From Bacteroidota bacterium (GTDB lineage: Bacteria > Bacteroidota > Bacteroidia > Bacteroidales > Prolixibacteraceae), in assembly GCA_029265715.1 (NCBI GenBank), contig JAJUGZ010000031.1, positions 1 through 40,720 on the forward strand: 40,720 nt of DNA, read 5' to 3'. This document shows positions 1-40,720 of the stretch, piece after piece. The translations under genes and the position numbers were made by a program. How positions within the stretch are numbered: position 1 is the stretch's first letter; the number at the start of each line of letters is the position of its first letter. The notes under the pieces were generated by a model that worked only from the letters and a program-made list of their open reading frames with translations, did no database searches and was not told the DNA's origin.

Positions 1-142
1 TATTTCATCTGTATAAATTTTCAATGTAGGTTCGTACAATTTTCGTAACAGTGTTCGCTTTTCAAGCTGAATCCCAACGGATGGAATAGCCATTTATACA
101 TTTTCGGTTTGTATGAGCGATGGCTCTTATGGCTATTTCATC
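1..142 (-). repeat. Palindromic intergenic repeat, A unit plus edge of next unit
   Basis: Read on the minus strand, the unit starts at 142 with GATGAAATAGCCAT (142-129), pairs with ATGGCTATTCCATC (93-80), and continues through an A-rich tail to position 10. Bases 9-1 open the next unit (GATGAAATA), which leaves the window. Inside the outer stem is a small stem GAGC/GCTC with a 4-base loop, and a second short pairing ATAC/GTAT. The unit is 133 bp, against 135 bp for the other complete A units. The tail differs from them: it carries the variant TTGAAAAGCGAACACTG in place of the more common TTTGAAAAACAG. Confidence 0.9.
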
Positions 143-238
143 TGTTTATAATTTGATTTTTAATTGCCAAATGGAACCCGCCATTATATCTGCTCCTGTG
201 TGTGAGAGACTATCTCTCGTGGCTCGTTTCATGGCAAC
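143..238 (-). repeat. Palindromic intergenic repeat, D unit, abutting a stop codon
   Basis: This unit lies between the stop codon of the outer-membrane protein gene (TAG at 241-239) and the A unit that starts at 142. On the minus strand its arms are TTGCCATGAAACGAGCCA (237-220) and its imperfect complement at 183-164. A perfect inner stem GAGAGA/TCTCTC (204-209 and 213-218) closes a 3-base loop. The tail ends in AAATTATAAACA and leads straight into GATGAAATAG of the A unit. It shares the TTGCC...GGCAA outer pairing with the E unit at 7069. Confidence 0.75.
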
Positions 239-1153
239 CTATCTGTAGATTTTGATACCGAACGACAAATCAATGCGCGACAGGTTTTCATAGTTATCTT
301 TATCCAGGTCGTAGGTTTGCGAATTGGTTCCATCGCTGGCTTTAACTTTCCGGAGGGTTGAGTAGAAAGCACTCAAATCGATTCCCAGTGAAATATGGGG
401 GGAGAGGAAATACTCGATGCCGAGACTGGCATCCATGGCTAAGCTATTCCCTTTGATAAGCATGGCATAGCCCGTGACTTCGGTTTCGTTCCGGTACATG
501 GCCATCCCAAGGGAGTAGGATGAATTCAGCTTGAGTTGCTGGCTGCGGTCCATCCATTGCTGCGCATAAAACGAAGCGCCCAGGTAATTTACGTAAATGT
601 TTTCACTGATTTTACTGTAAATCAGGGTTACTCCGTCTTTGGGATCAAAAAAGCCACTTTGGCTGTTTGAGTTATTAAAAAGCTTGTATTTCAGGCCGGC
701 GCCATATCCGGAAGGGAAGAGATAGGTCAGATCTGCCGCTCCCAAATATCCCAATCTTAATCCGTTGTAATACGATTTTGCTTCGTTTTTACTAAATCCG
801 CGATTGACCAGTTCTTTTTCTGCATCCTTCGAGCTGGCAATCAAATACCCCAGGCCTCCAGCCAGGCCCAAACGCCATCGTTGAACCTGAAGGGCGGGTT
901 CTGTTCTGAGTGTTTGCTTCAGGGGTGGGTCCTGAGGTTGCGAGTAGATGGTATAGTTTGAAACCGAACTTCGCGGAATGTCGCCGGATGTTTTCAGACC
1001 GTTCACCGTAAGATCGAAGAATATAGCCTTGCCGGTTACTTTCCTGATTTTACAGTTGATTGTGTCATTTTTTGTGGTAATGATTTTGTCTTGGGCAAGC
1101 GCCGAATGGCAAATTACTGCCAGCAAAAGCAGGAGCGGAATGTTGATCTTCAT
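239..1153 (-). CDS. Outer-membrane beta-barrel protein, family not recognised
   Basis: A 304-residue secreted protein. The start is the ATG at 1153, which gives a clean signal peptide (MKINIPLLLLLAVICHSALA, cleavage near AQ-D); an upstream in-frame TTG at 1177 is less likely. Residues 22-75 form a small beta-rich domain with the pattern ITTKNDTINCKIRKVTGKAI, seen in many secreted Bacteroidota proteins. From about residue 90 to the end, alternating hydrophobic and aromatic strands (GLAGGLGYLIA, GAADLTYLFPSGYGAGLKYK) and a terminal aromatic/basic segment (IDLSFGIKIYR) suggest an 8- to 10-strand outer-membrane barrel. No catalytic motif is visible. It reads alone on the minus strand, and a repeat array begins two bases past its stop. 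The role is unknown. Confidence 0.8.
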   Translation of the reverse strand: MKINIPLLLLLAVICHSALAQDKIITTKNDTINCKIRKVTGKAIFFDLTVNGLKTSGDIPRSSVSNYTIYSQPQDPPLKQTLRTEPALQVQRWRLGLAGGLGYLIASSKDAEKELVNRGFSKNEAKSYYNGLRLGYLGAADLTYLFPSGYGAGLKYKLFNNSNSQSGFFDPKDGVTLIYSKISENIYVNYLGASFYAQQWMDRSQQLKLNSSYSLGMAMYRNETEVTGYAMLIKGNSLAMDASLGIEYFLSPHISLGIDLSAFYSTLRKVKASDGTNSQTYDLDKDNYENLSRIDLSFGIKIYR

Positions 1154-1281
1154 AGAAGTTAAGGCTTGGTGGAACAATATAATATCAATAAAGCGAATAT
1201 ATTAATTCTTCACCAATAACCATAATATAACGGCTGTTAATTTTTTATGGCGAAAAAATCAAGGCGGCTTAATTCCGGCGT

Positions 1282-2577
1282 TCAGATCAGTTTTCCCGTT
1301 AAAACCAGCTTTTCCCCTTCGCCGGAAATACCGGTAAGTTTTACCTGCTGAATGGAGTTTTTCGGGATGGCATTTCCGGCAAATCCGATCGGAACATATA
1401 GATCGCCATAGCCCGAAGCCTTGGTTTTTGTGGCTTTTTCAACCAGTACCGCCTGTGTTTTCCCGATCAGTGACTCGAAATAGTGTCGTTTGTTTTGGTC
1501 GGCAAGCCGGCGGATTTGCTCCGAGCGGATGTTCTTTATCTTCTCCGGGACATGGCTTTCCATCCGTTCGGCGCGGGTTCCTTTCCGGACTGAATATTTA
1601 AACGTGTGCACATGGCTGAACTCAAATTCGCGAACAGCCTCCAGCGTTTCCTGAAATTCTTCTTCGGTTTCGCCCGGGAAGCCAACGATGATGTCGGTTG
1701 TGAGGTTAAAATCAGGATACCGGGTTCGGATTTTTTCAATAATGGCGCGGAATTGGGCAACATCGTACATCCGGCGCATGCGCAGCAGGGTTTTGTCCGA
1801 TCCGCTTTGCAAACATAAATGCAGGTGCGGCATCAGTTTCGGATGGTCGAACAGCTCCGGGAAACGGTCGCTAAAACCATCGGGTTCCAGCGAAGAAATA
1901 CGGACGCGAAAATCGCCGGGAACGTTCAGGATGGCTTCCAGCACATCTTCAAAACGGTTGTCTTCCCATTCGTAGCGGCCAATATTCACGCCGGTAATTA
2001 CCAGTTCTTTAAAACCATTGGCCAGTGTTTCTTTTACATTTTCGATGATTTGAGGCAACGGGCGGCTCACGGCACGTCCGCGGACTGTCGGAATGATGCA
2101 GAACGTACAAAAGTTATCGCAGCCATCCTGTATTTTGATAGCGCTGCGGGTGTGCAAACTTTTGTCGACGGTATGAAACTGAAATACATCGGCCTGCAGT
2201 TTCTCCGGATGGAGCAACTCGCCGCCAAAGTGCGCATCTACCAGGTTCAGGATCGAACCTTTCCGGTTGTTCTCAACCACATAGGTAATTTTCTCTTCAC
2301 CTTCAAGCGTTTCCTTGTAGTTGTTGGCCATACAACCGGTTACCACTACCATCGAGCCCTGATTGTTGCGGGCTGCCTGATTGATGATGTTGCGCGATTT
2401 CTGGTCGCTCTGGTTGGTCACGGTGCAGGTGTTCACCACTACCACGTCCGCTTTTTCGCGGAAGTCAACGATTTCATAGCCGGCTTTGTCGAAGTCAGAT
2501 ACCAGCGCGTCGGTTTCGTACTGGTTCAGCCGGCAGCCAAGCGTTTTAAAGGCAATCCGTTTTTTTGCAGAAGTCAT
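1282..2577 (-). CDS. mtaB: tRNA t6A37 methylthiotransferase MtaB
   Basis: A 431-residue radical SAM methylthiotransferase that adds a 2-methylthio group to N6-threonylcarbamoyladenosine at tRNA position 37. The N-terminal UPF0004 domain has three cluster cysteines, Cys15 (TLGCRLNQYET), Cys51 (NTCTV) and Cys82 (VTGCMA). The radical SAM domain carries CxxxCxxC at Cys153/157/160 (DGCDNFCTFC). A TRAM-like domain occupies roughly the last 65 residues. The GCRLNQYET signature and the NTCTVT context point to MtaB rather than MiaB or RimO. The start ATG overlaps the stop of the upstream miaB-type gene by 4 bases (ATGA), so the two are translationally coupled. Length is normal for the family. Confidence 0.92.
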   Translation of the reverse strand: MTSAKKRIAFKTLGCRLNQYETDALVSDFDKAGYEIVDFREKADVVVVNTCTVTNQSDQKSRNIINQAARNNQGSMVVVTGCMANNYKETLEGEEKITYVVENNRKGSILNLVDAHFGGELLHPEKLQADVFQFHTVDKSLHTRSAIKIQDGCDNFCTFCIIPTVRGRAVSRPLPQIIENVKETLANGFKELVITGVNIGRYEWEDNRFEDVLEAILNVPGDFRVRISSLEPDGFSDRFPELFDHPKLMPHLHLCLQSGSDKTLLRMRRMYDVAQFRAIIEKIRTRYPDFNLTTDIIVGFPGETEEEFQETLEAVREFEFSHVHTFKYSVRKGTRAERMESHVPEKIKNIRSEQIRRLADQNKRHYFESLIGKTQAVLVEKATKTKASGYGDLYVPIGFAGNAIPKNSIQQVKLTGISGEGEKLVLTGKLI

Positions 2578-3929
2578 TGTGCGTTCTCGATTTCTTTCTG
2601 AAGTACCAATTTACCGCTCATCGAAAAATCGGAGGCTGAAGTGATTTTTACATCGATCATTTTTCCCATCAGTTCCGGAGCTTTGTGGTCGAGCCTGACG
2701 GTAATTTTTCCTTCGGTCAGTCCGGTCGAAAAGCCGGTTTTCCGGTCAGTCCCGTTCACCAGCAGCCGTACTGTTTTCCCCACCATGCTTTCGTTGTACG
2801 TGCGGGTATAGATTTTCATCACTTCCGACAAGCGGCGAAAACGGTCTTTTTTCACATCCGGCGAAACGTCGTCCGGCCAGCGGTAACTGGCCGCGCCGGG
2901 CCGTGGCGAATACATGGCAATGTAGGCCATATTGAACCTGAACTCGTGGAACGCAGCCTCGGTATTTTGATACTCGGCTTCTCCTTCGCCGGTAAAACCA
3001 ACAATGATGTCTGTAAATAAGGTCGCTTGGGGAATCAGTTCGCGGATATCCTGAACAATCCGGCGGTATTTATCCATCGAGTGGCGTCGGTTCATTTTTA
3101 TCAGGACTTTTTCGTCGCCGCTTTGCATGGGCAGGTGAATTTGTCTGGCCAGGCACGGATATTGGGCGATTACCTCAATCACTTCGCGGGTCATATCCTG
3201 GGGGTGAGGCGAGGTGAAATAAACCCAGAATTCTTCGCCGGACTGATTCCCGTACTCCCCGATATTCCGGAGCAATTGGGCAAACGTAATTTCTTCCCCG
3301 TCTTTGTCTAATCCATACGAGTTCACATTCTGTCCCAGCAGGGTAATCGATTTGTATCCCTGGTTGACCAAGTGGCGCACTTCATCCAAGATTTCGCCGG
3401 AAGGCCTGGAAACCTCGCGGCTGCGCGTGTAAGGAACCGCGCAAAATGTGCAGAACTTATCGCACCCGTTCTGGATGGGTACGAAAGCTTCGTAGGTCGA
3501 TTCGTATTTGGGTTTAATTTGCCACAAATCGACGATATGCTCGTTTTTCGGCATCGCCGGCTTGGGTGCTTTCAACGATGCTGCATTGACAATGCCATAA
3601 TTCCGGATCATTTCAGGGAATTGGCCCAGTTCGCTCATCGGGAAAATGATGTCGAATTGTTTGAGCAGTTTTTCTTTATCGGCGGCAAGCACACAGCCCG
3701 AAAGGAACGTGATCAGGTTGCGTTTGCCCTTGTCCCGGTTCCATTGGGCGATTTTGTTGTAAACCTTATCGATGGGTTTTTGCCTTACGGAACAAGCCAG
3801 CATGCCAAGAAGATTGGCTTCGTTTTCGTTTTCCGTCCGCACGTAACCCATTTGTTCCAGAACGGCGGCAACACGCTCGCTGTCCGACAGGTTCATCTGG
3901 CAGCCTAATGTGATCAGGTGGTATTTCAT
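2574..3929 (-). CDS. miaB: tRNA ms2i6A37 methylthiotransferase MiaB-type
   Basis: A 451-residue radical SAM methylthiotransferase, predicted to thiomethylate isopentenyladenosine-37 of tRNA. Cluster cysteines are Cys10 (TLGCQMNLSDSE), Cys46 (ACSVR) and Cys79 (SGC); the radical SAM motif is Cys156/160/163 (NGCDKFCTFC); a TRAM domain follows from about residue 380. GCQMN and CSVRQ are MiaB hallmarks. The MLACSVRQ context and the whole N-terminal third differ from the GCQMNVADSE type that I associate with Bacteroidota, so it may belong to a separate MiaB-like clade or be a second copy. The ATG at 3929 lies exactly where a new repeat unit would begin: the upstream C unit (3931-4073) ends in TTTACTT and the gene continues with ATGAAATA. 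It is cotranscribed with mtaB. Confidence 0.85.
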   Translation of the reverse strand: MKYHLITLGCQMNLSDSERVAAVLEQMGYVRTENENEANLLGMLACSVRQKPIDKVYNKIAQWNRDKGKRNLITFLSGCVLAADKEKLLKQFDIIFPMSELGQFPEMIRNYGIVNAASLKAPKPAMPKNEHIVDLWQIKPKYESTYEAFVPIQNGCDKFCTFCAVPYTRSREVSRPSGEILDEVRHLVNQGYKSITLLGQNVNSYGLDKDGEEITFAQLLRNIGEYGNQSGEEFWVYFTSPHPQDMTREVIEVIAQYPCLARQIHLPMQSGDEKVLIKMNRRHSMDKYRRIVQDIRELIPQATLFTDIIVGFTGEGEAEYQNTEAAFHEFRFNMAYIAMYSPRPGAASYRWPDDVSPDVKKDRFRRLSEVMKIYTRTYNESMVGKTVRLLVNGTDRKTGFSTGLTEGKITVRLDHKAPELMGKMIDVKITSASDFSMSGKLVLQKEIENAQ

Positions 3930-3930
3930 A

Positions 3931-4073
3931 AGTAAATATTGTCGTTAAAATATTGAAATTTAGGCGCGTACTTATGGAACTCCATGCCATGAAAATTAGC
4001 TTCTCTACTAATATTTACATGGCCTTTGGTGCCACCACCATAAATTTTGTTACCGTGGCATGTTCGTTTCATT
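3931..4073 (-). repeat. Palindromic intergenic repeat, C unit, ends at the miaB start
   Basis: This 143-bp unit is nearly identical to 7439-7584: by eye the two differ at four bases plus one 3-base indel. On the minus strand it begins ATGAAACGAACATGCCA and has a right arm TGGCATGGAGTTCCAT. It contains an inner hairpin GGTG/CACC and ends CGACAATATTTACTT. The next bases are ATGAAATA, the first codons of miaB, where the other copy continues into an A unit with the same ATGAAATA. Confidence 0.9.
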
Positions 4074-4153
4074 ATTTGAAAGTTGCGAGTTATATGAGTA
4101 GTGAGTGTACATAGGGACTTAAACTTTTCACAGCTATTACCCATCTCTCATGA
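4074..4153 (-). repeat. Degenerate unit (F) between the reductase stop and the C unit
   Basis: This 80-base stretch fills the space between the reductase stop codon (4156-4154) and the C unit. On the minus strand it holds ATGAGAGATGGGTAATAG near its start, a weak ATGAG/CTCAT pairing, and ends GCAACTTTCAAATA before ATGAAACG. The end resembles the CAACTTTGAAAATTTATACAG tail of A units in shortened form. Assignment to the repeat family rests on that tail and on position, and is tentative. Confidence 0.4.
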
Positions 4154-4834
4154 CTAAAAATAGACTTCGCAATGAATTTGGTCGCGTTCAAAGCCTTTCT
4201 CTTTCAGGATTTCGAGCGCATCGAAAATCATATCACTGTTTCCGCAGAGATAAAAACGGCTGTCGGTCGGGAATTGGGCTTCTTTCAGGTAGCCGGTCAG
4301 CCTGCCATGATAATCGCCCTGTTTGTCGCGGCTGGTACACTGGATGTAACGTCCGTCGGCATATTCATGCCGGTCGTAGGCTTCGTCGCCCTGGCGTACG
4401 CCGTGAATCAGCGTATAGTCCAATTCGGGGTAGGTGCGGACCATACTCCGGAAGGGTGCAATACCAGTCCCGCTGGCAATAAAAATATGCTTGTGTGTAT
4501 CCCTGTAATTTTCGTCGATCCGGAATTTCCCGAAAGGGCCGTGCACTTCAACCAAAGCCCCGGGCTTTAGCTTCCGGAGTTTGGGCGTGAAATAGCCACC
4601 TTGAACTTCCTTGACCAGCACTTCAAGGTTCTCGTCGTTTTCGCCGCTATAGATTGAGTATTCGCGGCTTTGATAGTCGCCCTGGATGCTGAGCGAAATG
4701 TGTTGCCCGGCGCGGAACCGGAAGCGCGCTTTGGGCAAACGTACCGAAAATGTTTCGTTTGTTAGTTGTCTGATTTCTTCTACTTTGTAGAAGCTTTCGT
4801 CAATTTTTATTTCATTTTTTACACGTACTACCAT
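4154..4834 (-). CDS. Ferredoxin/flavodoxin-NADP reductase-like FAD oxidoreductase
   Basis: A 226-residue flavoprotein of the ferredoxin-NADP(H) reductase superfamily. The N-terminal beta-barrel holds the FAD motif RxYS (REYSIYS, near residue 57), and the C-terminal Rossmann domain has the NAD(P) motif GTGIAPFRSM (near residue 110) and the CGNSDMI segment. It ends in an aromatic residue (HCEVYF), as Fpr enzymes do. No 2Fe-2S ferredoxin domain is fused. The ATG at 4834 is preferred because family members start just before the first barrel strand; an in-frame ATG at 4885 would add 17 residues of poor fit. It lies upstream of miaB on the same strand, separated by repeat units, and is divergent from the flavodoxin-fold gene, a plausible redox partner. 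The exact substrate is not determined. Confidence 0.82.
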   Translation of the reverse strand: MVVRVKNEIKIDESFYKVEEIRQLTNETFSVRLPKARFRFRAGQHISLSIQGDYQSREYSIYSGENDENLEVLVKEVQGGYFTPKLRKLKPGALVEVHGPFGKFRIDENYRDTHKHIFIASGTGIAPFRSMVRTYPELDYTLIHGVRQGDEAYDRHEYADGRYIQCTSRDKQGDYHGRLTGYLKEAQFPTDSRFYLCGNSDMIFDALEILKEKGFERDQIHCEVYF

Positions 4835-4959
4835 GGCTTTTAAAATTTTGGATTGCAAACATAGGAAAATATCAATAAAAGACAAAAAGATCTTATAATG
4901 TCATAGGTGTTTCCGGACATATTTACCCGAATGACACCTGTTTTGTTTGGTGAATTCCG

Positions 4960-4967
4960 TAACTTTG
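4960..4967 (+). promoter_or_regulatory. Candidate -7 box for the flavodoxin-fold gene
   Basis: TAACTTTG matches the Bacteroidota -7 consensus TAnnTTTG exactly and sits 18 bases before the ATG at 4986. A TTTG element at the usual -33 distance is not clear, so this is a partial match. Confidence 0.5.
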
Positions 4968-4985
4968 GAAGAAAGCCGTTAAAAC

Positions 4986-5489
4986 ATGAGAACTTTAATT
5001 GTTTTTGCTACTACGCACGGATGTACCGAGAGTGTTGTGAATGAGTTGAAAGAAATGCTTTCCGGAGAGGTTGAGACAATAAACCTGAAGAAAGATCCAA
5101 ATCCATCGGTTGCTGATTTCGATCGGGTTATTATTGGCGGATCAATCCATGCCGGGCAGATTCAGCGGAGGGTGAAAGATTTCTGTCAGATGGCGCTTCC
5201 GGCGTTAGGCGATAAGCAGGTCGGCCTGTTTGTATGCTGCATGTACGAAGGGGCTGTGGCCCGCGAACAATTACAAAATGCATTTCCGGAAGAGCTTCAC
5301 CAAATGGCAAAGACCGAAGCCATCTTCGGTGGAGAATTTGATTTCAGGAAGATGAATTTTGTTGAGCGGATGCTGGTCAAGAAAATTGCGCATGTCTCAG
5401 AAAGCGTTTCCCGGATCGACCACAAAGCCATTGATCGGTTTGTAGCCAAAATGGAAAAAACATTCAGCCCGTTTATGTTCCTGATCTGA
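4986..5489 (+). CDS. Flavodoxin-fold protein, HemG-like
   Basis: A 167-residue protein with an FMN-binding flavodoxin fold: the phosphate loop ATTHGCTES lies right after the first strand, and IIGGSIHAGQIQRRVKDF and VGLFVCCMYEG match the second and third loops. Length and the GSSIH-like and Arg-Arg features resemble HemG, the menaquinone-dependent protoporphyrinogen IX dehydrogenase, including a basic amphipathic segment near residues 120-135 (FVERMLVKKIAHV). HemG is best known from gammaproteobacteria, and other flavodoxin-domain proteins share this pattern, so the haem role is an inference. The gene is divergent from the reductase and converges on the YihY gene with only 6 bases between stop codons and no visible terminator. 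Confidence 0.7.
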   Translation: MRTLIVFATTHGCTESVVNELKEMLSGEVETINLKKDPNPSVADFDRVIIGGSIHAGQIQRRVKDFCQMALPALGDKQVGLFVCCMYEGAVAREQLQNAFPEELHQMAKTEAIFGGEFDFRKMNFVERMLVKKIAHVSESVSRIDHKAIDRFVAKMEKTFSPFMFLI

Positions 5490-5495
5490 CGCAAT

Positions 5496-6824: not shown

Positions 6825-7068
6825 ACTTATTCTGTTTTTATAAACAATTAAATTTTTAACGTACTTAGTTTTCAGTATGTTGCCCCGAAATATGCGGACA
6901 GGCTGAATCCTGAAAATAAAAATAAAACTTGTCAGGCATACAGACATACCAAAAACCGTGCAAATCTTTTTTCGGTAAACCTTTACCTTTGTAAAGGTAA
7001 CAATTTTGGGCAGAACAGCCGGATTTAAACAGAATAACCTGGTATTTATAGCTTATGAACCGCACATG
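6825..7068. other. Intergenic region with GGTAAA half-sites
   Basis: This 244-base non-coding stretch lies between the DUF4783 start and the first repeat unit. It contains the half-site cluster described separately and otherwise AT-rich sequence without a credible ORF. On the minus strand it should hold the DUF4783-YihY promoter, but no unambiguous TAnnTTTG box could be assigned in that direction. Confidence 0.5.
6974..7001. promoter_or_regulatory. GGTAAA half-site cluster over a plus-strand -7 box
   Basis: GGTAAA (6974-6979) and TTTACC (6982-6987) form one inverted pair. CCTTTAC (6980-6986) and GTAAAGG (6991-6997) form a perfect 7-bp inverted repeat around CTTT, and a third half-site GGTAAC follows (6996-7001). 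TACCTTTG (6984-6991) inside the cluster matches the TAnnTTTG -7 box on the plus strand, where the only downstream content for 720 bases is the repeat array leading to rlmH. This looks like an operator on a promoter; no regulator can be named and the -33 element is unclear. Confidence 0.45.
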
Positions 7069-7150
7069 TTGCCGGTAAAATGAACCCCGATGAGAATAAT
7101 TCTCAGCAGCATGTGAGTTCCATCAGGCAATTGAGAAACAAATTTTTATT
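7069..7150 (+). repeat. Palindromic intergenic repeat, E unit
   Basis: The outer arms TTGCC (7069-7073) and GGCAA (7126-7130) enclose ATGAAC (7080-7085) and GTTCCAT (7117-7123). A perfect inner palindrome TGAGAAT/ATTCTCA sits at 7091-7105. The tail TTGAGAAACAAATTTTTATT leads directly into the next unit at 7151. It is the same class as the D unit at 143-238, more diverged. Confidence 0.6.
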
Positions 7151-7247
7151 GATGAAATAGACATGAATTGCAAACACCAACAAATAATGAAAATAATAAC
7201 CGGATCATGGCTATTCCATCTGACAACTTAAAAACAAATTATTTACA
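7151..7247 (+). repeat. Palindromic intergenic repeat, B unit
   Basis: This 97-bp unit has arms GATGAAATAGACATGA at 7151 and ATCATGGCTATTCCATC at 7204-7220, a loop rich in A and C, and a tail TGACAACTTAAAAACA leading to TTTACA. Loop and tail are nearly identical to the units at 35120-35216 and 40637 onward. Here one arm base has changed (AGACAT instead of AGCCAT). Confidence 0.9.
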
Positions 7248-7438
7248 GATGAAATAGCCATAAAAGCAGAAGCTTCTACCAACCGAAAATGTACAAATGG
7301 CTATTCGCTTCGCGGATTTCACTGCGTGGATCGTTGCTGCGCTCCGATTCGCAAGCTCAATTCCATACCGGTGCGAATTTTATTGAAAAGCAAAAGCTGT
7401 TACGAAAATTGTACGAACCAACATTGAAAATTTATACG
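7248..7438 (+). repeat. Palindromic intergenic repeat, interrupted A unit
   Basis: The left arm GATGAAATAGCCAT (7248-7261), inner stem AAGC/GCTT (7264-7275) and a right arm beginning ATGGCTATTC (7287-7296) are present. The last arm bases are then replaced by a GC-richer stretch of about 75 bases (7297-7372). After it the tail resumes (GTTACGAAAATTGTACGAA, then GAAAATTTATACG) and ends at the next unit. Total length is 191 bp rather than 135. Confidence 0.85.
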
Positions 7439-7584
7439 GATGAAGCGAACATGCCACGGTAACAAAATTTATGGTGGTGGCACCAAAGGCCATGTAAATA
7501 TTATTAGTAGAGAAGTTAATTTTCATGGCATGGAGTTCCATAAGTACACGCCTAAATTTCAATATTTTAACGACAATATTTACT
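7439..7584 (+). repeat. Palindromic intergenic repeat, C unit
   Basis: This 146-bp unit begins GATGAAGCGAACATGCCA (7439-7456), has a right arm TGGCATGGAGTTCCAT (7526-7541) and an inner hairpin GGTG/CACC (7473-7484), and ends TATTTACT before TATGAAATAGCCAT of the A unit. It is almost identical to the copy upstream of miaB. Confidence 0.9.
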
Positions 7585-7720
7585 TATGAAATAGCCATAA
7601 GAGCCATCGCTCATACAAACCGAAAATGTACAAATGGCTATTCCATCTCGTTGAGAAACTAGTTTGAAAAATAGAAATAGATACGAAAATTGCAAGAAAC
7701 AACTTTGAAAATTTGTACAG
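7585..7720 (+). repeat. Palindromic intergenic repeat, A unit, runs into the rlmH start
   Basis: The left arm TATGAAATAGCCAT (7585-7598) pairs with ATGGCTATTCCATC (7634-7647). The inner stem GAGC/GCTC (7601-7604 and 7609-7612) encloses CATC. The tail ends CAACTTTGAAAATTTGTACAG at 7720. Exactly 135 bases after the unit start, where another unit would open with GATGAAAT, the sequence is GATGAAAAT and the ATG is the rlmH start codon. Confidence 0.92.
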
Positions 7721-8194
7721 ATGAAAATACAGCTATTGGTAATCGGCAAGACTGATGAAGTTTATTTACGAGAGGGGTTGGATATTTTTCTGAACCGCAT
7801 TGTGCATTACATTCCGTTTGAAATGAGGGTATTACCTGATGTAAAAAACACCCGGAAGTTGTCGGAAGAGCAGCAAAAGGAGCGGGAAGGAGAGTTGATT
7901 GTTCAGCAGTTAGTTGCCGGAGATGAGTTGATCTTGCTCGATGAAAACGGGAAGGAATTTAGTTCGTCGGGTTTTGCACAGTTTTTGGAGAAGAAGATGG
8001 TTTCGGGAATAAAACGGGTGGTTTTTGTAATTGGCGGGCCGTATGGCTTTTCTGCGCAGGTTTATCAGCGGGCCAATGGTAAAGTAAGTTTGTCGAAAAT
8101 GACGTTTTCGCACCAGATGGTGAGGCTGATTTTTGCCGAGCAGCTTTACCGGGCTTTTACAATTATTAAAGGCGAACCGTATCATCATCCGTAA
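7721..8194 (+). CDS. rlmH: 23S rRNA m3-pseudouridine-1915 methyltransferase RlmH
   Basis: A 157-residue SPOUT-class methyltransferase that methylates pseudouridine 1915 in helix 69 of 23S rRNA on the assembled ribosome. The full family pattern is present: MKIQLLVIGKT at the start, LDENGKEFSSSGFA in the middle, the SAM-binding knot segment VFVIGGPYGFS, and the C-terminal MVRLIFAEQLYRAFTIIKG followed by EPYHHP. Length is standard. The ATG lies in the ATGAAA that follows the repeat tail, so the untranslated leader is made entirely of repeat sequence. A sensor kinase gene follows after 21 bases. Confidence 0.97.
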   Translation: MKIQLLVIGKTDEVYLREGLDIFLNRIVHYIPFEMRVLPDVKNTRKLSEEQQKEREGELIVQQLVAGDELILLDENGKEFSSSGFAQFLEKKMVSGIKRVVFVIGGPYGFSAQVYQRANGKVSLSKMTFSHQMVRLIFAEQLYRAFTIIKGEPYHHP

Positions 8195-8215
8195 AAAATC
8201 GCTACTTTTTCAGGC

Positions 8216-27737: not shown

Positions 27738-27746
27738 CACAGTCAC

Positions 27747-30492: not shown

Positions 30493-30495
30493 TCG

Positions 30496-31439: not shown

Positions 31440-31499
31440 TTCCATATTTCATGCAATCTTCGTAACAGTGTTCGCTTTTCAATCTGGGAAATTGGTTCT
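31440..31499 (-). repeat. Solo tail remnant of the repeat family
   Basis: TTCGTAACAGTGTTCGCTTTTCAA (31460-31483 on the plus strand) recurs at 43-66 in the tail of the first A unit. Here the tail lies without hairpin arms, next to the TrmN6 stop codon (31502-31500), in the sense of that gene. It shows that fragments of the units persist alone. Confidence 0.65.
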
Positions 31500-32216: not shown

Positions 32217-32267
32217 CTTCCCCGATTAAGATTTGCAGTCAAAAATATAATGATTTGCGGGTTTGGA

Positions 32268-33692: not shown

Positions 33693-33696
33693 TGAT

Positions 33697-34947
33697 TTAG
33701 TTTCGGGGGTCGGAAACGTGTGAAATAAACAAATCAATATTTAACTCCGGAAACGCACGTAAGCGTTCAAGATAGTCCCGGCCTTCACGGCTCATTTGGT
33801 TCAGGGTCCGGCAGGCCTCAATCTTTAACGAGATGTTATTTCCACAGACAACTTTGCCAAGAAACTCAATATCTTCATTCTCTCCGATTTGATTGAAAGC
33901 CATCAGGATTTCCATTTGGTTTTTTATGGTTTCAGACTCAAAAATCTCGATCAGCTTTTGTTTGCCTTCCAACAGGCGAAGTTCCGATACGGCCCTGATT
34001 GCCAGAAATCGCGTTAATTCGTCCGGATGATCAAGCAGGGCGATAATTTCATCCTTGTGCTCTTGTTGCTGAAAGTGGGTTACCATGCGTAAACTAAAAT
34101 TCCGGATGTTGCGGTGGTTCGATTTTAGCCAGGCAGACAATGATGGAACCTGAATGTCGTAAAGCCGGACCAAAAAAAATACATTCATCTGTGTCCATCG
34201 GGTGAAGGGCCTGACCAGTTGATCGAAGAACGCAAATGGTTTCGTCTGGTTTATGTATACGTACGAAATTTGTGCTTCGGAGCGGACGTAATCGTTCGGG
34301 TCGTTGATGTGTTTTTGTATAAAAGGCGACGCTTTTTGCGGGTACATATTGGTTAGCGTTCGTATGCCCATTACCCGTTTGTAGAAAAACACCGAGTTGG
34401 CCATTTTTCCTGCGTCTTGTTGAAGGTTCAGACGTTCAAATATTTCGAGGATCTTAGCGTCCGAATCTCCCCGAAGGTTTGTTTGGTAATTAAACAGCAT
34501 CGAGAGAAAGGCTTCGCGGTATCTTGGGCGGTTTATATATTTCAATTTTCTGATAGCTTCTTCGGCCGAAATTTCTTCGAACAGATAAGATGTCAGTACC
34601 TGTTCGTAATTTTCATTGGCTTTTGCAAGTTTTTTGTCCCTGGCAGCCTTGAGTATACTGGATATATAAAGGACCAGGATTGCCACCAGGGCATTAACAA
34701 TAAAAAGCATGGCCAGCAATAAGAAAAACGCGGCAGCATAATAATGGGTTTTTCCTTTTACTTCAGGGCCCATCAATCCAATTATGTGCTGCGGAAAATA
34801 ATTCAGGGCCCGTGTCAGGAAATGATGGGCTGATGTGACATCGATAGAGGCGTACCCGATTTTCCCGGCCTGCCGGGTACATTCACCTGCCAGGGATGGT
34901 AATCCGTAAAAGAGTGCAATGGATAAGAATGTCAAACGATTTTCCAT
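33697..34947 (-). CDS. HEAT-repeat protein with membrane anchor
   Basis: A 416-residue protein. A possible signal or first helix (MENRLTFLSIALFYGLPSLA) is followed by an extracytoplasmic stretch of about 45 residues and a strong membrane helix (AAAFFLLLAMLFIVNALVAI, about residues 71-95). The remaining 310 residues are cytoplasmic and helical, with HEAT-like pairs such as NDYVRSEAQISYVYI, HPDELTRFLAIRAVSELRLL and KIEACRTLNQMSREGRDYL. HEAT repeats are scaffolds, so it may assemble or regulate the glycosyltransferase encoded 4 bases downstream. A repeat array ends 28 bases before its ATG. Confidence 0.75.
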   Translation of the reverse strand: MENRLTFLSIALFYGLPSLAGECTRQAGKIGYASIDVTSAHHFLTRALNYFPQHIIGLMGPEVKGKTHYYAAAFFLLLAMLFIVNALVAILVLYISSILKAARDKKLAKANENYEQVLTSYLFEEISAEEAIRKLKYINRPRYREAFLSMLFNYQTNLRGDSDAKILEIFERLNLQQDAGKMANSVFFYKRVMGIRTLTNMYPQKASPFIQKHINDPNDYVRSEAQISYVYINQTKPFAFFDQLVRPFTRWTQMNVFFLVRLYDIQVPSLSAWLKSNHRNIRNFSLRMVTHFQQQEHKDEIIALLDHPDELTRFLAIRAVSELRLLEGKQKLIEIFESETIKNQMEILMAFNQIGENEDIEFLGKVVCGNNISLKIEACRTLNQMSREGRDYLERLRAFPELNIDLFISHVSDPRN

Positions 34948-34975
34948 AGGCTGATTTGACTCGTGAACCTGCGTT

Positions 34976-35119
34976 TATTTCATCCGTATAAATTTTCAAA
35001 GTTATTTCTTACAATTTTCGTATCTATTCCTGTTTTTCAAACTAGTTTTTCAACGAGATGGAATAGCCATTTATACATTCCCGGTTGGTATAAGCTTCAG
35101 CTTTTATGGCTATTTCATC
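34976..35119 (-). repeat. Palindromic intergenic repeat, A unit inside an operon
   Basis: On the minus strand the unit opens at 35119 with GATGAAATAGCCAT, has the inner stem AAGC/GCTT (35092-35103) and right arm ATGGCTATTCCATC (35070-35057), and a tail ending TATACG. At exactly 135 bases the sequence repeats GATGAAATA (34984-34976) and then changes to unique sequence 28 bases before the HEAT gene start. Confidence 0.92.
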
Positions 35120-35218
35120 TGTAAATAATTTGTTTTTACGTTGTCAGATGGAATAGCCATGATCCGGTTATTATTTTCATTATCTGTTGGTGTTTGCAAA
35201 TCATGGCTATTTCATCTA
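35120..35218 (-). repeat. Palindromic intergenic repeat, B unit abutting the yaiO stop
   Basis: On the minus strand GATGAAATAGCCATGAT (35216-35200) starts two bases after the yaiO-type stop codon (35221-35219), and pairs with ATCATGGCTATTCCATC (35163-35147), a 17-bp arm with one A-C mismatch. Unit length to the next GATG is exactly 97 bases, the same as at 7151. The loop is nearly identical to that copy. Confidence 0.92.
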
Positions 35219-36505
35219 TTATTTGAAGAGATATGCCAGAGCAGCCCGGGTTATGAATTCATCGCGCCACATATTTTGCCGGTATTGGGCTTTTTCGTAC
35301 CCGGCAGCCACATCAAACTGGAAATGGCTTCCAACCCGTTGTTTCCAACCGATTTGAATATTCCGTGATTTCAGGACATACCGGTCGTATTCGACGGTGT
35401 AAATGGCCGGATTATCCGGCGATGTGCCGGTGCCTGCACACAGAGACAGGTAGCTGTCGTCGCGGGACAGATATTTCCGGATTGTGAGTGATAATTTGGT
35501 TGAAAAATCATTGCCGTTATCAATCAAAAAGGGGCGGAACGAAAGCCAGTAGCTTCCCTGGTATTTCCCGACAGAACCTGTGTAAATATTTATTTTCCGG
35601 GAGGTGGCATTTGTTTGGCTAAAGTCCATATACCGATATCCGGCCGATAGCTCAAATGCGTGGGGAAGTCCTTGGTACACTTCTACACCGAACCTGGTTT
35701 TCGGGAAATTGTCTTCGCCCGAAAAGCTGTAGTTCAGGAACAGATACTTTTTTTGTGAAATTCTCGGATAAGCTTCAATGGCAAACTGTCTGGAAACACC
35801 GGCCCCATACCATTTTTCGCCATCCTGGACTAAATCGCCCCAGTACATTCGCCCGTAAATCATGCCCAATTTCGTTCTCCGTCCGTAACTTAAGGTCGAA
35901 AGGTGCCAATGGCGGATATACGGTTTCTTAAAATTCTCGTAGTAATATTCTGTTTCAATTTTATTTTTCCAGTTGTCAGAGTTGACTTCTTTTAACAGAT
36001 TGCTTGCCTGCTGATTTTGTGGGTCAATCTCCAGAACCTTGTTCAGTGAGGTTTTGCTTAAATCATATTCCTGAATTTTATATTCGGCCTGGGCTTTTTT
36101 CATCAGGAGCTCGCTGTTCAGAGGATGTACATTCAATCCGGTTTCGCAGACAGATATGGCTTCAACCGGGCGGTTCGACCAAATGTAAATATCAGCCAAA
36201 GCCAGTGTTGCCTCCAGATTGTCTGGTTTTGCGGCGAGTACTTTTTTTAGTTGGGTTTCTGCTTCACTGAAATTGTGGTTCCAGGCATTTACCCTGCCGG
36301 CAAAGATTCTTACATCTGTGTAATCCGGATATTGTTCCAGAATCTGGTAAGCTAAGTTAATGGCTTCGCGGTATTGTTTTTCGGATGCCAGTTTCCGGGC
36401 ATTCTCAAATTCAACGTCGGCGTTTAGCTTTTTTTTTTCCTGGGCCATCCCCAGTTGAAATGTCCAGACGAGAACGATAAGTAAGAGCGATATTTTAAAA
36501 TTCAT
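35219..36505 (-). CDS. YaiO-type outer-membrane barrel with TPR domain
   Basis: A 428-residue exported protein with signal peptide (cleavage near LGMA-QE). Residues 25-165 hold about four TPR units (for example EAINLAYQILEQYPDYTDVR and AVSVCETGLNVHPLN-like, here EAISVCETGLNVHPLNSELL). Residues 175-428 form a YaiO-family beta-barrel with alternating aromatic strands and the terminal ITRAALAYLFK. TPR plus outer-membrane barrel is also the plan of PgaA, the poly-N-acetylglucosamine export porin, so an export role for a polymer made by the nearby GT2 is plausible. Its start overlaps the response regulator stop by 4 bases. Confidence 0.82.
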   Translation of the reverse strand: MNFKISLLLIVLVWTFQLGMAQEKKKLNADVEFENARKLASEKQYREAINLAYQILEQYPDYTDVRIFAGRVNAWNHNFSEAETQLKKVLAAKPDNLEATLALADIYIWSNRPVEAISVCETGLNVHPLNSELLMKKAQAEYKIQEYDLSKTSLNKVLEIDPQNQQASNLLKEVNSDNWKNKIETEYYYENFKKPYIRHWHLSTLSYGRRTKLGMIYGRMYWGDLVQDGEKWYGAGVSRQFAIEAYPRISQKKYLFLNYSFSGEDNFPKTRFGVEVYQGLPHAFELSAGYRYMDFSQTNATSRKINIYTGSVGKYQGSYWLSFRPFLIDNGNDFSTKLSLTIRKYLSRDDSYLSLCAGTGTSPDNPAIYTVEYDRYVLKSRNIQIGWKQRVGSHFQFDVAAGYEKAQYRQNMWRDEFITRAALAYLFK

Positions 36506-36870
36506 CGTTTGGTTGCCATTAGTTTTTTAATCCGAACGGTCAATTCGCTCAGGCTGAATGGTTTAACCATATAGTCGTCGGCCCCAAGCTCGAAGGCTTT
36601 TAAAACAGTATCTTCAGCTCCCGCAGCCGATAAGACCAAGATCGGAAGATTGCGTTGGTACTCGTTCCGGATGGTTGAAACAACTTCGTGACCATTTACA
36701 TAGGGCATGAATAAATCGGTGATCAGTAGGTCGATCTCGTTGCTTTTCACATAATCAAGACACTCTTTCCCGTCGTTTACCTTGATGACTTCAAAACCGT
36801 CGCGAAGCAATTTGTGTGAAATTGTTTCGAGAATGAGTTTGTTATCCTCTGCTACCAAGATGCGTTTCAT
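36502..36870 (-). CDS. Single-domain response regulator
   Basis: A 122-residue receiver domain with no output domain. The acidic pair is Glu8-Asp9 (VAEDNK), the phospho-acceptor is Asp52 (LLITDLFMP), the signalling Ser81 is in VLSAAG, and Lys103 is in MVKPFS. It should work by protein contact, CheY-like, or as a relay. It is the first gene of the cluster, overlapping the YaiO gene by ATGA, so its dose is tied to the exporter. No kinase lies next to it. Confidence 0.93.
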   Translation of the reverse strand: MKRILVAEDNKLILETISHKLLRDGFEVIKVNDGKECLDYVKSNEIDLLITDLFMPYVNGHEVVSTIRNEYQRNLPILVLSAAGAEDTVLKAFELGADDYMVKPFSLSELTVRIKKLMATKR

Positions 36871-37296
36871 GTCTGTATTTTTAGTTTTTGGGGGTTAAAC
36901 TTAACAAAAATCAGGATAATTTCAGGGGCTGTTTATTTGAGAAATGCCCATTATATAATTCTTTAAAAAGACAAGGGGGAACCCCTGTTTTGATTAAAAA
37001 AATGATTGTTCGCTGAATTTCGGGGGTGTAAGGGCAATGACAACTGGGTTGTCGATTTCTGTTATGCTCTTGGTTATTTGCATAAAATAAGCTTGTTTGT
37101 CGGGTTCTGTTAATGACAGATTACATTTCGATCTACAGGGTGTCTTCCGGATTTTTCGGGCTCATCAGGGAGACAACAACCGTATATTGTTCGTGTCAAG
37201 GGACATAGCCCAAGTACTCTTGGTCTGTAGGAGAAGTGGGATGGCTAAATCGAAACAACAAACGGTTGTTATTCCCTGTAAAAAAACCGGATCAGG
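36871..37296. other. Intergenic region, 426 bases
   Basis: It separates the response regulator start from the acyl-CoA synthetase stop, both on the minus strand, so it should hold the cluster's promoter and the synthetase's terminator. A small AGGGG/CCCCT hairpin lies near 36976-36990, which on the minus strand would be in the response regulator's leader. AACAAC/GTTGTT (37254-37270) is a weak candidate terminator. No credible gene is seen, and no perfect TAnnTTTG box was assigned. Confidence 0.45.
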
Positions 37297-38949
37297 TTAT
37301 TCTACCTCGATGCCTCGCTCTTTCAGCATTTGCAGGCTCGACTCCCGCATTTTGTATTTTTGTATTTTTCCGCTGGCCGTCATAGGGAAACTATCAACAA
37401 ATACAACGTACTTGGGTATTTTATAACGGGCAATCTTTCCGCGGCAGAATTCGTGTACGTCTTCCTCTGTAAGGCTCATGCCGCTTTTAAGCTTGATAAA
37501 GGCACCTACCTGTTCTCCATATTTGGGGCTTGGCACGCCAATAACCTCTACAGCCTCAATTTCGGGCATGTTGTACAGGAAGTTTTCTATTTCACGGGGA
37601 TAGATATTTTCACCTCCCCGGATAATCATATCTTTGATTCGCCCGGTAATTTTGTAAAAGCCATCTTCGGTTTTTACAGCCAGGTCGCCGGAGTGTAGCC
37701 AACCGTTTGCATCGATAGCTTTGGCTGTTGCTTCCGGGTTTTTGTAATATCCTTTCATCAGGTTGTAGCCGCGGCAGCAAATTTCTCCCTGCTCGCCGAC
37801 AGCGCATTCTTCACCGGTATCCGGGTTAAAAATTTTGACTTCGACGTTCGGGTACTCAAAACCCACGGTGTTGGCTCTGACTTCCGGCGAATTGTGTGTC
37901 CGGGTGGCAGTCATGCCCGGCGAGCTTTCTGTCAGACCATAAACAATGATAATGTCTTTCATATTCATTCGGGTCATCACCTGGTTCATGGTTTCGATCG
38001 GGCAGGGGGCTCCGGCCATGATCCCGGTGCGCAGCGAGCTTAAGTCGAACATCGAGAACATCGGGTGATTGAGTTCGGCGATAAACATGGTCGGAACGCC
38101 GTAAAGGGCAGTACATTTTTCTTTTTCGACCGATGCAAGTACCATGAGCGGGTCGAAGTTTTCAACCATGACCATCGTTGCGCCATGCGTTACAATGGCG
38201 CACAATGCCAATACGCAGCCAAAGCAGTGAAACAGCGGCACACAAACCAACAAGCGGTCTTTGCTCGTGTATTTCATGCACTCGCCGGTTGCATAACCGT
38301 TATTCAGGATGTTGTGATGGGTTAGCATGACTCCTTTGGGGAATCCGGTTGTTCCGGAAGTATATTGCATGTTGACGACATCGTGGCAGTTCACTTTTTC
38401 TTTAACGGTTTCCAGTTCCAGGTCGTCGACATGGCTCCCGAGCAGGATCAGTTCGGTGGTGTTATACATGCCCCGGTGTTTTTCCTGCCCGATGAAAACG
38501 ACATTCCGGAGGTAGGGGAATTTGGCTGCGCGTAAATTTTCCCGGGTCGTGCTTTTCAATTCAGGGACCAATTCGAAAACCATGCTGACATAGTCGCTAT
38601 CGCGAAACCCATCGACCAGGCAAAGGGTATGTATGTCGGCATTCTGCATTAGGTATTCCAGTTCAGACAGCTTGTAATTTGTATTGATCGTAACCAGGAC
38701 TGCCCCGATCTTGGCGGTGGCAAACATGAAGGTCAGCCAGTCGGGGACATTGTTGGCCCAGATCCCAACTTTGTCGCCTTCGCGAACCCCAATATACAGC
38801 AAGCCCTTAGCCAGACAATTTACCCGTTCGTCAAATTGGGCGTAGGTAAAACGCAGGTCGCGGTCAGGATATACAATAAATTCATGGTCGGGTGTTTCAG
38901 TGGCCCACTTTTCGAGCATTTCGCCCAGGGTATAATCCAGTAACTGCAT
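37297..38949 (-). CDS. Acyl-CoA synthetase (AMP-binding, ACSF2/FadD-like)
   Basis: A 550-residue ANL-superfamily ligase that activates a carboxylic acid to acyl-AMP and then acyl-CoA. The P-loop [12 protein letters not shown] is near residue 190, [11 protein letters not shown] near residue 325, the YRTGD-type motif reads WLHSGD near residue 418, and the C-terminal hinge and lysine motif are [20 protein letters not shown] and [13 protein letters not shown]. The sequence fits medium- to long-chain fatty acyl ligases of the ACSF2 group rather than acetyl-CoA synthetases. It is 33 bases downstream of an XRE/cupin regulator gene and probably under its control. Confidence 0.9.
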
Positions 38950-38982
38950 GGTAATCGGTTTCTTTGTTTAATTTAACCAGAT

Positions 38983-39558
38983 TTAGAACGGAGCATATAG
39001 TACGGCAAGGATCTTTGCCGGCTGTGAATTTCCGGCGTGGACGTTGTGTGACACAATCGAGTCCAGATAAATACTGTCGCCTTTTTCAAGGATGTAAATA
39101 TCTTTGCCATAATTGATTTCGACAACTCCCTCTAAAACATAAATAAATTCTTCTCCCTCGTGCGATGAGAGCATATAATCTGATTTTTGACTGGGCTCAA
39201 TATCAACAATAAACGGTTCCATGTGTCGGCCTGCTTTATTGTATGCCAACGAAAAAAAGTTCAGGTGTTCGCGTGTTTCGTGCGGTTGAGATGTGAACCG
39301 GACCCCTTTGTGCAGGTCGTCGGCTTTTACAACTGCCGGGGCAAAATTGTCGTTGTCGTCTAAAAAGGTCCCCAGGCGGACTCCCAATGCTCTGGCAACT
39401 TTAATTAGCGGAGCTAATGACGGGATGATACGTTCTTCTTCTAACTTGCGGATCAGCGTTGTGTCAAGACCTGTCCGTTCTGCTAAATCTTCACGACTGA
39501 GTTTCTTTAATTCGCGAATTTGCCTGATTTTTTCTCCAACGTTTTTTTCAGTAGCCAT
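38983..39558 (-). CDS. XRE-family regulator with C-terminal cupin
   Basis: A 191-residue transcription factor. Residues 8-65 are a helix-turn-helix (KIRQIRELKKLSREDLAERT followed by GLDTTLIRKLEEER), and residues 110-188 form a cupin (HEGEEFIYVLEGVVEINYG and GDSIYLDSIVSHNVHA) that should bind a small ligand. Such regulators usually repress or activate the adjacent metabolic gene, here the acyl-CoA synthetase 33 bases downstream; an acyl or CoA ligand is a guess. Confidence 0.9.
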   Translation of the reverse strand: MATEKNVGEKIRQIRELKKLSREDLAERTGLDTTLIRKLEEERIIPSLAPLIKVARALGVRLGTFLDDNDNFAPAVVKADDLHKGVRFTSQPHETREHLNFFSLAYNKAGRHMEPFIVDIEPSQKSDYMLSSHEGEEFIYVLEGVVEINYGKDIYILEKGDSIYLDSIVSHNVHAGNSQPAKILAVLYAPF

Positions 39559-39701
39559 AACATGTCTTTTTTTGAGAGTGACTCACAAAATTAACTTAAA
39601 TTCGGGTTTGAGCAAATCATTCAGCCCTTCGCAAACGACGATATGTAATCGGGGGAAAATAGTTATACGGATCAACCGTTCATGACAATCCAAAATGAAC
39701 T

Positions 39702-39709
39702 TATATTTG
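39702..39709 (+). promoter_or_regulatory. Candidate -7 box for the lycopene cyclase gene
   Basis: TATATTTG matches TAnnTTTG and lies 54 bases before the ATG at 39764. The -33 position shows no clear TTTG. Confidence 0.45.
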
Positions 39710-39763
39710 CATTGTTTCGTTCAGCCCGGATTCACGTATCCTGAAATTTTAATCCATTCAGTT

Positions 39764-40444
39764 ATGAATTATACCTATCTGATTTTGCTTGTGTGTTTGA
39801 TTGCCGCTCCGCTTGCCCTGAGTTTTCGGAAGGATATTTATTTTTATACCAATTGGCGTTATCTGTTCCCTTCCATATTGATCACTGCTTTGCCGTTTGT
39901 TTGGTGGGACCTGAGGTTTACCCAGGAAGGTATCTGGTCGTTTAATCCGGAATATCTGACCGGAATTTCGCGCAAGGGGCTTCCCCTTGAAGAATGGTTG
40001 TCGTTTCTGGTTATTCCGTACAGCGCGGTTTATCTTTACGAAATTTTCAAGTATTACTGTGCCCGCTACGAATATGCGAACCCGTTTGTGATTGTAAGCC
40101 TGGTGTTGATTGTTGTTTTCGGGGCGATGGCCTGGGTTTTCAGGGCCCGGTATTACACGTTCTATGTATTCCTGTTCTCGGCTGTTTACCTTTGTTACAC
40201 TATATTTCGGAACTTGTTCAAGCAACACCTGACCAAGTTTTATTTTACCTTTTTTGCCATGTTGTTTCCATATCTGGTTTTTAGCGGAATATTAACCGGG
40301 TTAAAAGTCGTGGAATATCAGCCCGATCAGATTTTAGGAGTCAAATTATTTTCGGTCCCGGTTGAGAATGTGGTTTATCTTTTTCTGATGATCTTGATGG
40401 TTACTACGGTTTACGAGTATTTAAAGGAGCGGAAGTTTTTTTGA
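39764..40444 (+). CDS. Lycopene cyclase-domain membrane protein
   Basis: A 226-residue protein with six or seven membrane helices in two similar halves, each of the CrtYc/CrtYd lycopene cyclase type. The first half has WWDLRFTQEGIWSFN and the motif PLEEWLSFLVIPYSAVYLYE; the second has the shorter counterpart PVENVVYLFLMILMVTTVYE. The paired P-x-E-E/P-x-E-N motif is the family hallmark. The protein should cyclise lycopene in carotenoid synthesis. The ATG at 39764 precedes the first helix; an upstream TTG at 39695 is unlikely. No other carotenoid gene is in the window. Confidence 0.87.
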   Translation: MNYTYLILLVCLIAAPLALSFRKDIYFYTNWRYLFPSILITALPFVWWDLRFTQEGIWSFNPEYLTGISRKGLPLEEWLSFLVIPYSAVYLYEIFKYYCARYEYANPFVIVSLVLIVVFGAMAWVFRARYYTFYVFLFSAVYLCYTIFRNLFKQHLTKFYFTFFAMLFPYLVFSGILTGLKVVEYQPDQILGVKLFSVPVENVVYLFLMILMVTTVYEYLKERKFF

Positions 40445-40501
40445 GTATTTGGGATTTATAACGGAGGGTAATATATTTGGTAGTTTGTGCATGATTAAGT
40501 T

Positions 40502-40636
40502 GATGAAATAGCCATAAAAGCTGAAGCTTATACCACCCGGGAATGTATAAATGGCTATTCCATCTCGTTGAAAAACTAGTTTGAAAAACAGAAATAGATA
40601 CGAAAATTGTAAGAAACAACTTTGAAAATTTATACA
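40502..40636 (+). repeat. Palindromic intergenic repeat, A unit
   Basis: The left arm GATGAAATAGCCAT (40502-40515), inner stem AAGC/GCTT (40518-40529), right arm ATGGCTATTCCATC (40551-40564) and a tail ending TATACA lead at exactly 135 bases to the next unit. It lies 57 bases after the lycopene cyclase stop, in the same sense. Confidence 0.92.
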
Positions 40637-40720
40637 GATGAAATAGCCATGATTTGCAAACACCAACAGATAATGAAAATAATAACCGGATCATGGCTAT
40701 TCCATCTGACAACTTAAAAA
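40637..40720 (+). repeat. Palindromic intergenic repeat, B unit, cut by the window end
   Basis: GATGAAATAGCCATGAT (40637-40653) pairs with ATCATGGCTATTCCATC (40690-40706). The tail TGACAACTTAAAAA runs off the window. The order A then B is the reverse of that at 34976-35218 and differs from 7151-7438 too, so units can follow each other in either order. Confidence 0.92.

Follow-up and report, generated by a model that had tools for sequence, protein, structure and literature searches.

How did five intergenic regions of one 40,720-nucleotide contig come to be filled with palindromic units that follow each other head to tail? The window, by which we mean this whole stretch (JAJUGZ010000031.1, our C183, a complete contig), belongs to a Prolixibacteraceae bacterium whose genome assembly (GCA_029265715.1) comprises 4,204,664 bases in 200 contigs. 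We suggest, with a probability of about 0.6, that the units are non-autonomous mobile hairpin elements moved in trans as a folded single strand, with the motif TTCCATxyz at the end of the hairpin as a guide. An earlier note, made from the sequence alone, had described the units as modules of one repeat family. It did not see that the ATGAA opening each unit is the insertion target and usually a start codon, that the modules appear to be related elements inserted separately, each into the ATGAA of another, that in most classes the hairpin foot pairs with the bases adjacent to the junction, and that in relatives the units are mostly single.

Each unit consists of ATGAA, an imperfect hairpin ending in TTCCATxyz, and a tail, after which the next ATGAA follows. 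ATGAA forms the unit boundaries and there is no spacer between consecutive units, as had been noticed before at five places of the window. Unit length in the window is 72–146 bp, a nested insert not counted, and tail lengths cluster at about 29, 43 or 72 bases. The arms differ between classes (ATAGCCAT in A and B, ACGAACATGCCA in C and ACGAGCCATG in D in the host genome, which has other classes too); the arm-divergent classes all share ATGAA, while TTCCAT and the complement at the end are usual, not universal. On inspection, the complements AAG/CTT, ACT/AGT and CTG/CAG are kept by classes with other arms. The arms form an A–C mismatch at the fourth base of ATGAA, except in a few copies that lack it because they read TTTCAT (for example in L016, L054 and at one place in the class-wide sample). 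Since units were collected by an exact-arm pattern, the invariance of the arms in alignments A1, A2 and A4 is built in. No boundary was found for 4 of 165 hairpins, two of these at contig ends, and two units whose boundary is not delimited end in ATGAT and ACGAA (L106, L167). The copies found in the window are the following.

9–141, minus strand: ATAGCC-class unit, 133 bp, long tail (hairpin 81–141 scored by the covariance model); the junction ATGAA at 4–8 and then the contig end follow.
142–232, minus strand: class D unit, 91 bp, ATGAAACGAGCCACGAG...GGTTCCATTTG...AACAG; 4 other distinct copies in the fetched host-genome stretches.
3930–4072, minus strand: class C unit, 143 bp; the next ATGAA (3925–3929) is the start codon of a radical-SAM/TRAM gene (2574–3929).
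7080–7151, plus strand: class E unit, 72 bp, TTCCATCAG...TTG and then ATGAA; the sole copy among the fetched stretches.
7152–7248, plus strand: class B unit, 97 bp, short tail.
7249–7439, plus strand: ATAGCC-class unit, 191 bp, with a nested 58-bp palindromic insert in the right arm.
7440–7585, plus strand: class C unit, 146 bp.
7586–7720, plus strand: class A unit, 135 bp; a SPOUT methyltransferase gene has its start codon at the next ATGAA (7721).
31450–31486, minus strand: long-tail fragment (remnant), recognised on inspection.
34984–35118, minus strand: class A unit, 135 bp; next comes ATGAAATAA at 34983, whose ATGAA is not a start codon; the open reading frame (ORF) begins 36 bases further on, at 34947.
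35119–35215, minus strand: class B unit, 97 bp.
40503–40637, plus strand: class A unit, 135 bp.
40638–40720, plus strand: class B unit, cut by the contig end.

These coordinates bear out the exact lengths given before (135 bp three times for A, 97 bp twice for B). The region 3930–4153, previously assigned to the repeats, indeed begins with a unit, but this is the only one, and nothing was recognised in 4073–4153; the remnant placed at 31440–31499 is, on inspection, the tail piece only.

The earlier note had regarded clean empty sites as a sign of mobility, and two were found. Two units sit within genes near their 3′ ends, namely in the Y1 transposase gene of the host genome and in miaA of the congener G018. 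When the flanks of the unit in the host Y1 gene (L061) are joined they read GAGTATGATGAA-AAATATTTATGG (longer reading GAGTATGATGAAAAATATTTATGG), and the unit-free Y1 gene of G018 (L063), 73% identical, reads GACTATGATGAA-CGATATTTATGG (longer reading GACTATGATGAACGATATTTATGG). Among three related Y1 genes printed, those of G018 and G011 (L068) carry ATGAA with no unit, and that of G026 (L066) carries ATGAG. The joined flanks in the G018 miaA give CAAAAGATGAAAAATAATGAC, the G003 counterpart is CAAAAGATGAACCATAATGAA, and ATGAA is unbroken there at the insertion place (CAAAAGATGAACCATAATGAATGA). Of 17 miaA loci processed, 10 had a readable end (G018 and 9 others) and the remaining 7 were removed by the filter; of these 9 others, three show the unbroken ATGAA (G013, G017, G003) and six have different letters. 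At these two intragenic sites, the element entered a pre-existing ATGAA and left ATGAA at both ends. The unit search presupposes ATGAA at delimited boundaries, and the independent support comes from the two empty sites. The double ATGAA may represent either a target duplication or a matching element end, the sequence alone fitting both. The sixth target base is A in 76% of insertions versus 49% of 51 clean ATGAA starts; beyond ATGAA and this base, no other strong target signal was found.

The usual target is a gene’s start codon, which is rebuilt downstream of the unit. The right end could be delimited for 71 units of relatives; joining the flanks places 51 of them at an ORF start, 6 at ambiguous sites and 14 at non-ORF sites, one of which is intragenic (L169). 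The other ATGAA of the same loci comprise 48 starts, 104 non-coding non-starts and 527 occurrences within coding sequence. Compared with the other non-coding ATGAA, to which the background of 104 is confined, the excess of start codons at unit sites has an odds ratio of 7.9 (Fisher p = 1.6e-10), or 5.5 (p = 2e-8) if the ambiguous sites are counted against it; the 71 units are not fully independent, L107, L109 and L131 being one site across three lake genomes. ATGAA stands at 51 of 252 gene starts sampled, about one fifth. The genes behind the units are diverse: 57 proteins scanned yielded 76 Pfam families, none of them in more than two members. Selection accounts for the rarity of units inside genes, and on its own leaves the excess over other non-coding ATGAA unexplained, although such sites may also be selected. 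Start codons are probably favoured in part because entry there keeps the protein intact; they may also be actively preferred. The old start becomes Met-Lys-stop in the ATAGCC classes (ATGAAATAG).

The two ends of the element are linked by complementarity. In short-tailed units of relatives, the base after the right arm pairs with the base before the downstream ATGAA (position 1) in 29 of 31 cases, through four Watson–Crick pair types (shuffled mean 11.0), and position 2 is likewise paired in 29/31 (shuffled mean 19.2); for long tails, position 1 is paired in 23/31 (shuffled mean 8.7). None of 2000 shuffles reached any of these three counts. The host genome gives 16/16 at position 1 for short tails (shuffled 12.5) and 46/63 for long ones (shuffled 40.2). 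The left flank is unpaired (13/71; 12/64 with tail-like flanks removed). The tail end thus covaries, unlike the left flank; the right end is therefore part of the element and for the most part complementary to TTCCATxyz. Alignment covariation scores were 0.171 versus 0.070 for A1 and 0.107 versus 0.051 for A2, reached by 0 of 500 shuffles, with a contribution from inner-loop stems. If the two ends are brought together, as they would be in a circle or at a tandem junction, five of five window units fold both into one stem, in all five with an A–C mismatch inside ATGAA (RNA parameters); C and D show an extra internal loop, and the outer end is less regular in A. The tail hairpin of the predicted folds holds the start codon of the downstream gene.

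Two of the window arrays end exactly at start codons (gene 3929 on the minus strand and gene 7721 on the plus strand), a third stops at an ATGAA that lies 36 bases upstream of an ORF start, and the remaining two reach contig ends; the longest holds five units in a row (7080–7720). An ATAGCC-class unit directly behind another occurs in 27 of 90 cases in the host genome versus 0 of 71 in relatives. In relatives, units can form short arrays together with members of other classes: a tail lies before the unit in at least L093, L120 and L126, and a unit-like sequence comes after it in L104. Arrays probably arise when an ATGAA that an earlier unit has left is entered by a new one.

The mechanism that we propose would operate as follows. 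The element would move in trans as a folded single strand, and TTCCATxyz would act as a guide pairing with ATGAA at either element end. On the bottom strand, the order is TTCAT, tail (linker), guide (complement of TTCAT), hairpin and TTCAT, as at the left end of the insertion sequence (IS) family IS200/IS605. The enzyme might be a transposase of the Y1/HUH type, whose gene would be either L316, considered below, or absent from the assembly; alternatively, it might be a recombinase of another kind that reads hairpins. Arrays would grow by further insertion into the junction ATGAA. More tentatively, the units could be self-guided single-strand elements whose guide reads the start codon, so that they spread gene by gene, always in sense; proteins would stay intact, each gene would gain a leader, a mini-ORF and a start-codon hairpin, and six guide bases would set the target.

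That the family is modular, high in copy number and joined by a shared sequence, as claimed before, is substantiated by many further copies. A 14-mer of the hairpin arm, GATGAAATAGCCAT, has 82 exact copies genome-wide (reversed control 0) and 273 with at most one mismatch (5 for the reversed control), an abundance beyond chance. With the 135-bp A unit, 53 matches were obtained from the 40 candidates scored out of 207, and 25 of these matches are at least 95% identical. Covariance model R1, built from 46 sequences of the main hairpin class and applied with a cut-off of E 0.01 to 150 candidates per genome, weak matches up to that value included, found at least 149 matches in the host genome and 0–23 in each of 22 congeners: 23 in G018, 15 in G013, 11 in G017, 8 in G011, 7 in G012, 5 in G003 and at most 2 in each of the remaining 16. 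Of 199 relatives, 22 contain the exact hairpin pattern, the host genome among them, and they represent 8 of 102 genera (control 0); a class-wide sample had it in 2 of 395 genomes, one being the host. A narrower pattern retrieved 11 named stretches, all of them metagenome-assembled Prolixibacteraceae, Bacteroidia or Bacteroidetes; viral contigs gave 0 matches to the units, and plasmids and phages none either. Several contigs end within units, which indicates that the assembly breaks at them. The family was probably amplified recently.

Y1 genes were considered as possible movers of the units. A search with PF01797 at E 0.001 found one such gene in the host genome; its motifs seem to resemble those of subclass 1.2 as set out in PMC8266576. 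This resident gene, a potential REP-associated tyrosine transposase (RAYT; REP, repetitive extragenic palindromic), is unsupported as the mover both by its flanks, which carry another REP, and by its distribution among genomes. The one unit-bearing Y1 locus fetched from relatives (L229 of G132) has the unit exactly at the Y1 start codon and a repeat of its own, ACCGCGTAGCGGT; a second pattern match, L083, is a long palindrome, ATGAAATTGGGGG...CCCCCAATTTCAT, read as its own repeat. These two matches came from a wider pattern; a narrow arm filter (ATGAA..GCCA) found no units at the Y1 loci, and no unit-bounded Y1 gene was seen among those fetched, some of the listed Y1 matches remaining unfetched. 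The second Y1 type in relatives has other repeats in the flanks printed. A second Y1-like gene of the host, L316 (C60:5389–5733, in a 202-amino-acid frame), is a distant match to the G130 Y1 query (28% identity, E 8.4e-6) and may be regarded as a candidate mover.

Several distinct REP-like repeats of their own accompany the Y1 genes of this bacterial group (L062–L070, L228, L229, L241, L244–L254), examples being CCCTGAAAGGGC, ACCGCGTAGCGGT, CCCCTCGTTGCAAACGAGG and GCGGATTTGCAATCCGC. Units occur at two Y1 genes, at the 3′ end of one (L061) and the start codon of another (L229), by coincidence or as a hint.

There are two tyrosine recombinases in the host genome, one of which is integron-integrase-like (377 amino acids, PF13495 and PF00589, L290 93–1226). 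On inspection, a tail fragment of the unit family lies about 60 bases before its start, the only tie of these recombinases to the units, and they were set aside as movers. The gene in L290 ends 92 bases from the contig edge. Similar integrase genes in relatives are followed, on inspection, by the attI-like GTTATGCC or a similar sequence.

Several observations weigh against movement in trans by a guided single strand. No mobilising enzyme was identified for the units. The host Y1 gene and several of its relatives are flanked by a different REP type (CCCTGAAAGGGC/CCCAAGGC); a unit was present at only 1 of the 79 Y1-type loci fetched from relatives, where the Y1 gene carries a REP of its own; the best Y1 of G013, G017 and G012 (15, 11 and 7 unit matches) reaches only 34–44% identity, and G001 and G021 have a Y1 at 65–66% identity yet 0 unit matches. 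The fetched stretch of L316 has no unit. Strain-level polymorphism for the units was not shown. Pairing is uneven, since mid-length tails in relatives have the complement in 0/8 at positions 1 and 2, and long tails are paired at position 2 in only 6/31. Pairs changed on both sides in A1 number 5 against 4.2 in shuffles (192 of 500 shuffles), and pair types number 13 against 11.7 in A1 (150/500) and 11 against 9.3 in A2 (72/500); neither measure is distinguishable from the shuffled alignments. Four single units folded as DNA had z-scores of -1.80, -0.83, -1.99 and -4.50, so that three of the four are predicted to fold only mildly better than shuffles. Finally, the start-codon bias could be due to selection alone.

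The strongest competitor, in our opinion still unlikely, is a cis-acting RNA leader, where TTCCATxyz in the mRNA would pair with an upstream AUGAA mini-ORF or with the gene start and switch translation. The position of units before start codons in gene orientation, the start codon within the predicted tail hairpin, the covarying pairs and the reading of ATGAAATAG as Met-Lys-stop are all compatible with such a leader, but it would hardly account for the copy number (at least 149 in the host genome versus 0–23 in congeners), arrays of up to five units, the 14 of 71 units at non-ORF sites, insertions near gene ends, or 57 downstream proteins that share no common family. A regulatory effect is possible as a by-product of a mobile element, and both readings could hold together. 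We give little credence to gene-less integron-like cassettes, whose joined ends would form an attC-like site with the core ATGAA for a tyrosine recombinase. Head-to-tail arrays, a joined-end stem containing ATGAA and a mismatch, and the integrase-like gene with the family tail fragment before its start speak for them. Integron attC sites have GTTRRRY/RYYYAAC boxes at the recombination point, and on inspection of A1 and A2 no conserved pair of this kind is present at the unit boundary. Moreover, a similar integrase exists in G021, which has 0 unit matches, and in G004 and G022, which have 1 apiece, and the relatives’ integrase genes are followed by what reads as ordinary attI-like sequence.

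Passive spread by template switching or gene conversion at ATGAA micro-homology, with no dedicated enzyme, is hardly probable: the only clear target need is five bases and no enzyme was identified, yet the unit ends recur exactly at many unrelated sites and covary across genera, which points to a specific reaction. The most doubtful proposal is that ordinary REP sequences are spread by a resident RAYT. It draws on the unit in the 3′ end of one Y1 gene and the unit just before the start codon of another (G132), against which stand the lack of a GTAG-type foot, the single unit among 79 fetched Y1-type loci, the direct rather than inverted order of units, and Y1 flanks that, as read, mostly carry other repeats.

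Comparison with known systems places the proposed mobile hairpins near, but outside, several of them. Miniature inverted-repeat transposable elements (MITEs) of the DDE type have terminal inverted repeats and a variable target duplication. The units are like them small, non-autonomous and numerous; unlike them, they have no terminal inverted repeats, the hairpin of the left end and the AT-rich tail of the right differing in A1 and A2, and their five flanking bases are constantly ATGAA. Streptococcal BOX elements are modular with a variable module order, which the units share, but in the present family every module has the appearance of a complete element, and all have one target in common. Integron cassette arrays resemble the units in the folded site, the head-to-tail order and a site spanning the joined ends, and differ from them in that the units have the core ATGAA, no gene inside and no attC core boxes. 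Rfam at the gathering score gave 0 matches in the window, and 3 far below it at 7060–7740.

REP sequences, bacterial interspersed mosaic elements (BIMEs) and REP doublets forming hairpins (REPINs) are likewise short, high-copy intergenic palindromes with a mismatch. According to PMC8266576, REP is defined by a GTAG-like tetranucleotide at the hairpin foot; none was found in A1 and A2. The units also differ in their length of 72–146 bp, their direct arrays and the absence of a link to RAYT, no RAYT gene having been found flanked by the same unit. The earlier opinion that the family fits neither REP/BIME nor MITE thus holds as regards the GTAG foot, RAYT linkage and terminal inverted repeats. 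Closest are the ends of IS200/IS605, where the hairpin serves as the binding site of the enzyme and the cut is set through pairing of the target with a guide immediately 5′ of the hairpin (PMC6006769, PMC8266576). The mismatched hairpin, the short fixed target (here ATGAA) and the internal guide pairing with cleavage sites are common to both, the guide being reflected in the covariation except in the mid-tail class (0/8). Unlike in IS200/IS605, both ends would share a single hairpin and both carry ATGAA, start codons are the main target, arrays run head to tail and the units have no linked transposase; neither an element-encoded Y1 transposase nor a matching autonomous copy was seen.

Small non-autonomous mobile hairpins are known, and the targeting of start codons is new as far as our literature search shows, which found no element of such a description. 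Mobile elements often damage the site that they enter, whereas here entry rebuilds what it splits. The family offers a testable case of base-pair-guided targeting and of the large-scale replacement of 5′ leaders within a single species.

Two minor features of the units may be added. The 58-bp palindromic insert at 7307–7364 (GCTTCGCGGATTTC...GATTCGCAAGCTCAATTCC) stands after ATGGCTATTC in the right arm of its unit; it has 9 distinct matches in the fetched host-genome stretches, this one included, mostly at the same position of the unit, and is a second small repeat nested in the first. Among 11 class C copies that include the unit start, 8 are open for 47–49 codons from there and 3 are broken; the stop TGA of the open frames overlaps the next ATG, 2 of the 8 being cut by a contig end. 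This frame may encode a leader peptide or be due to chance.

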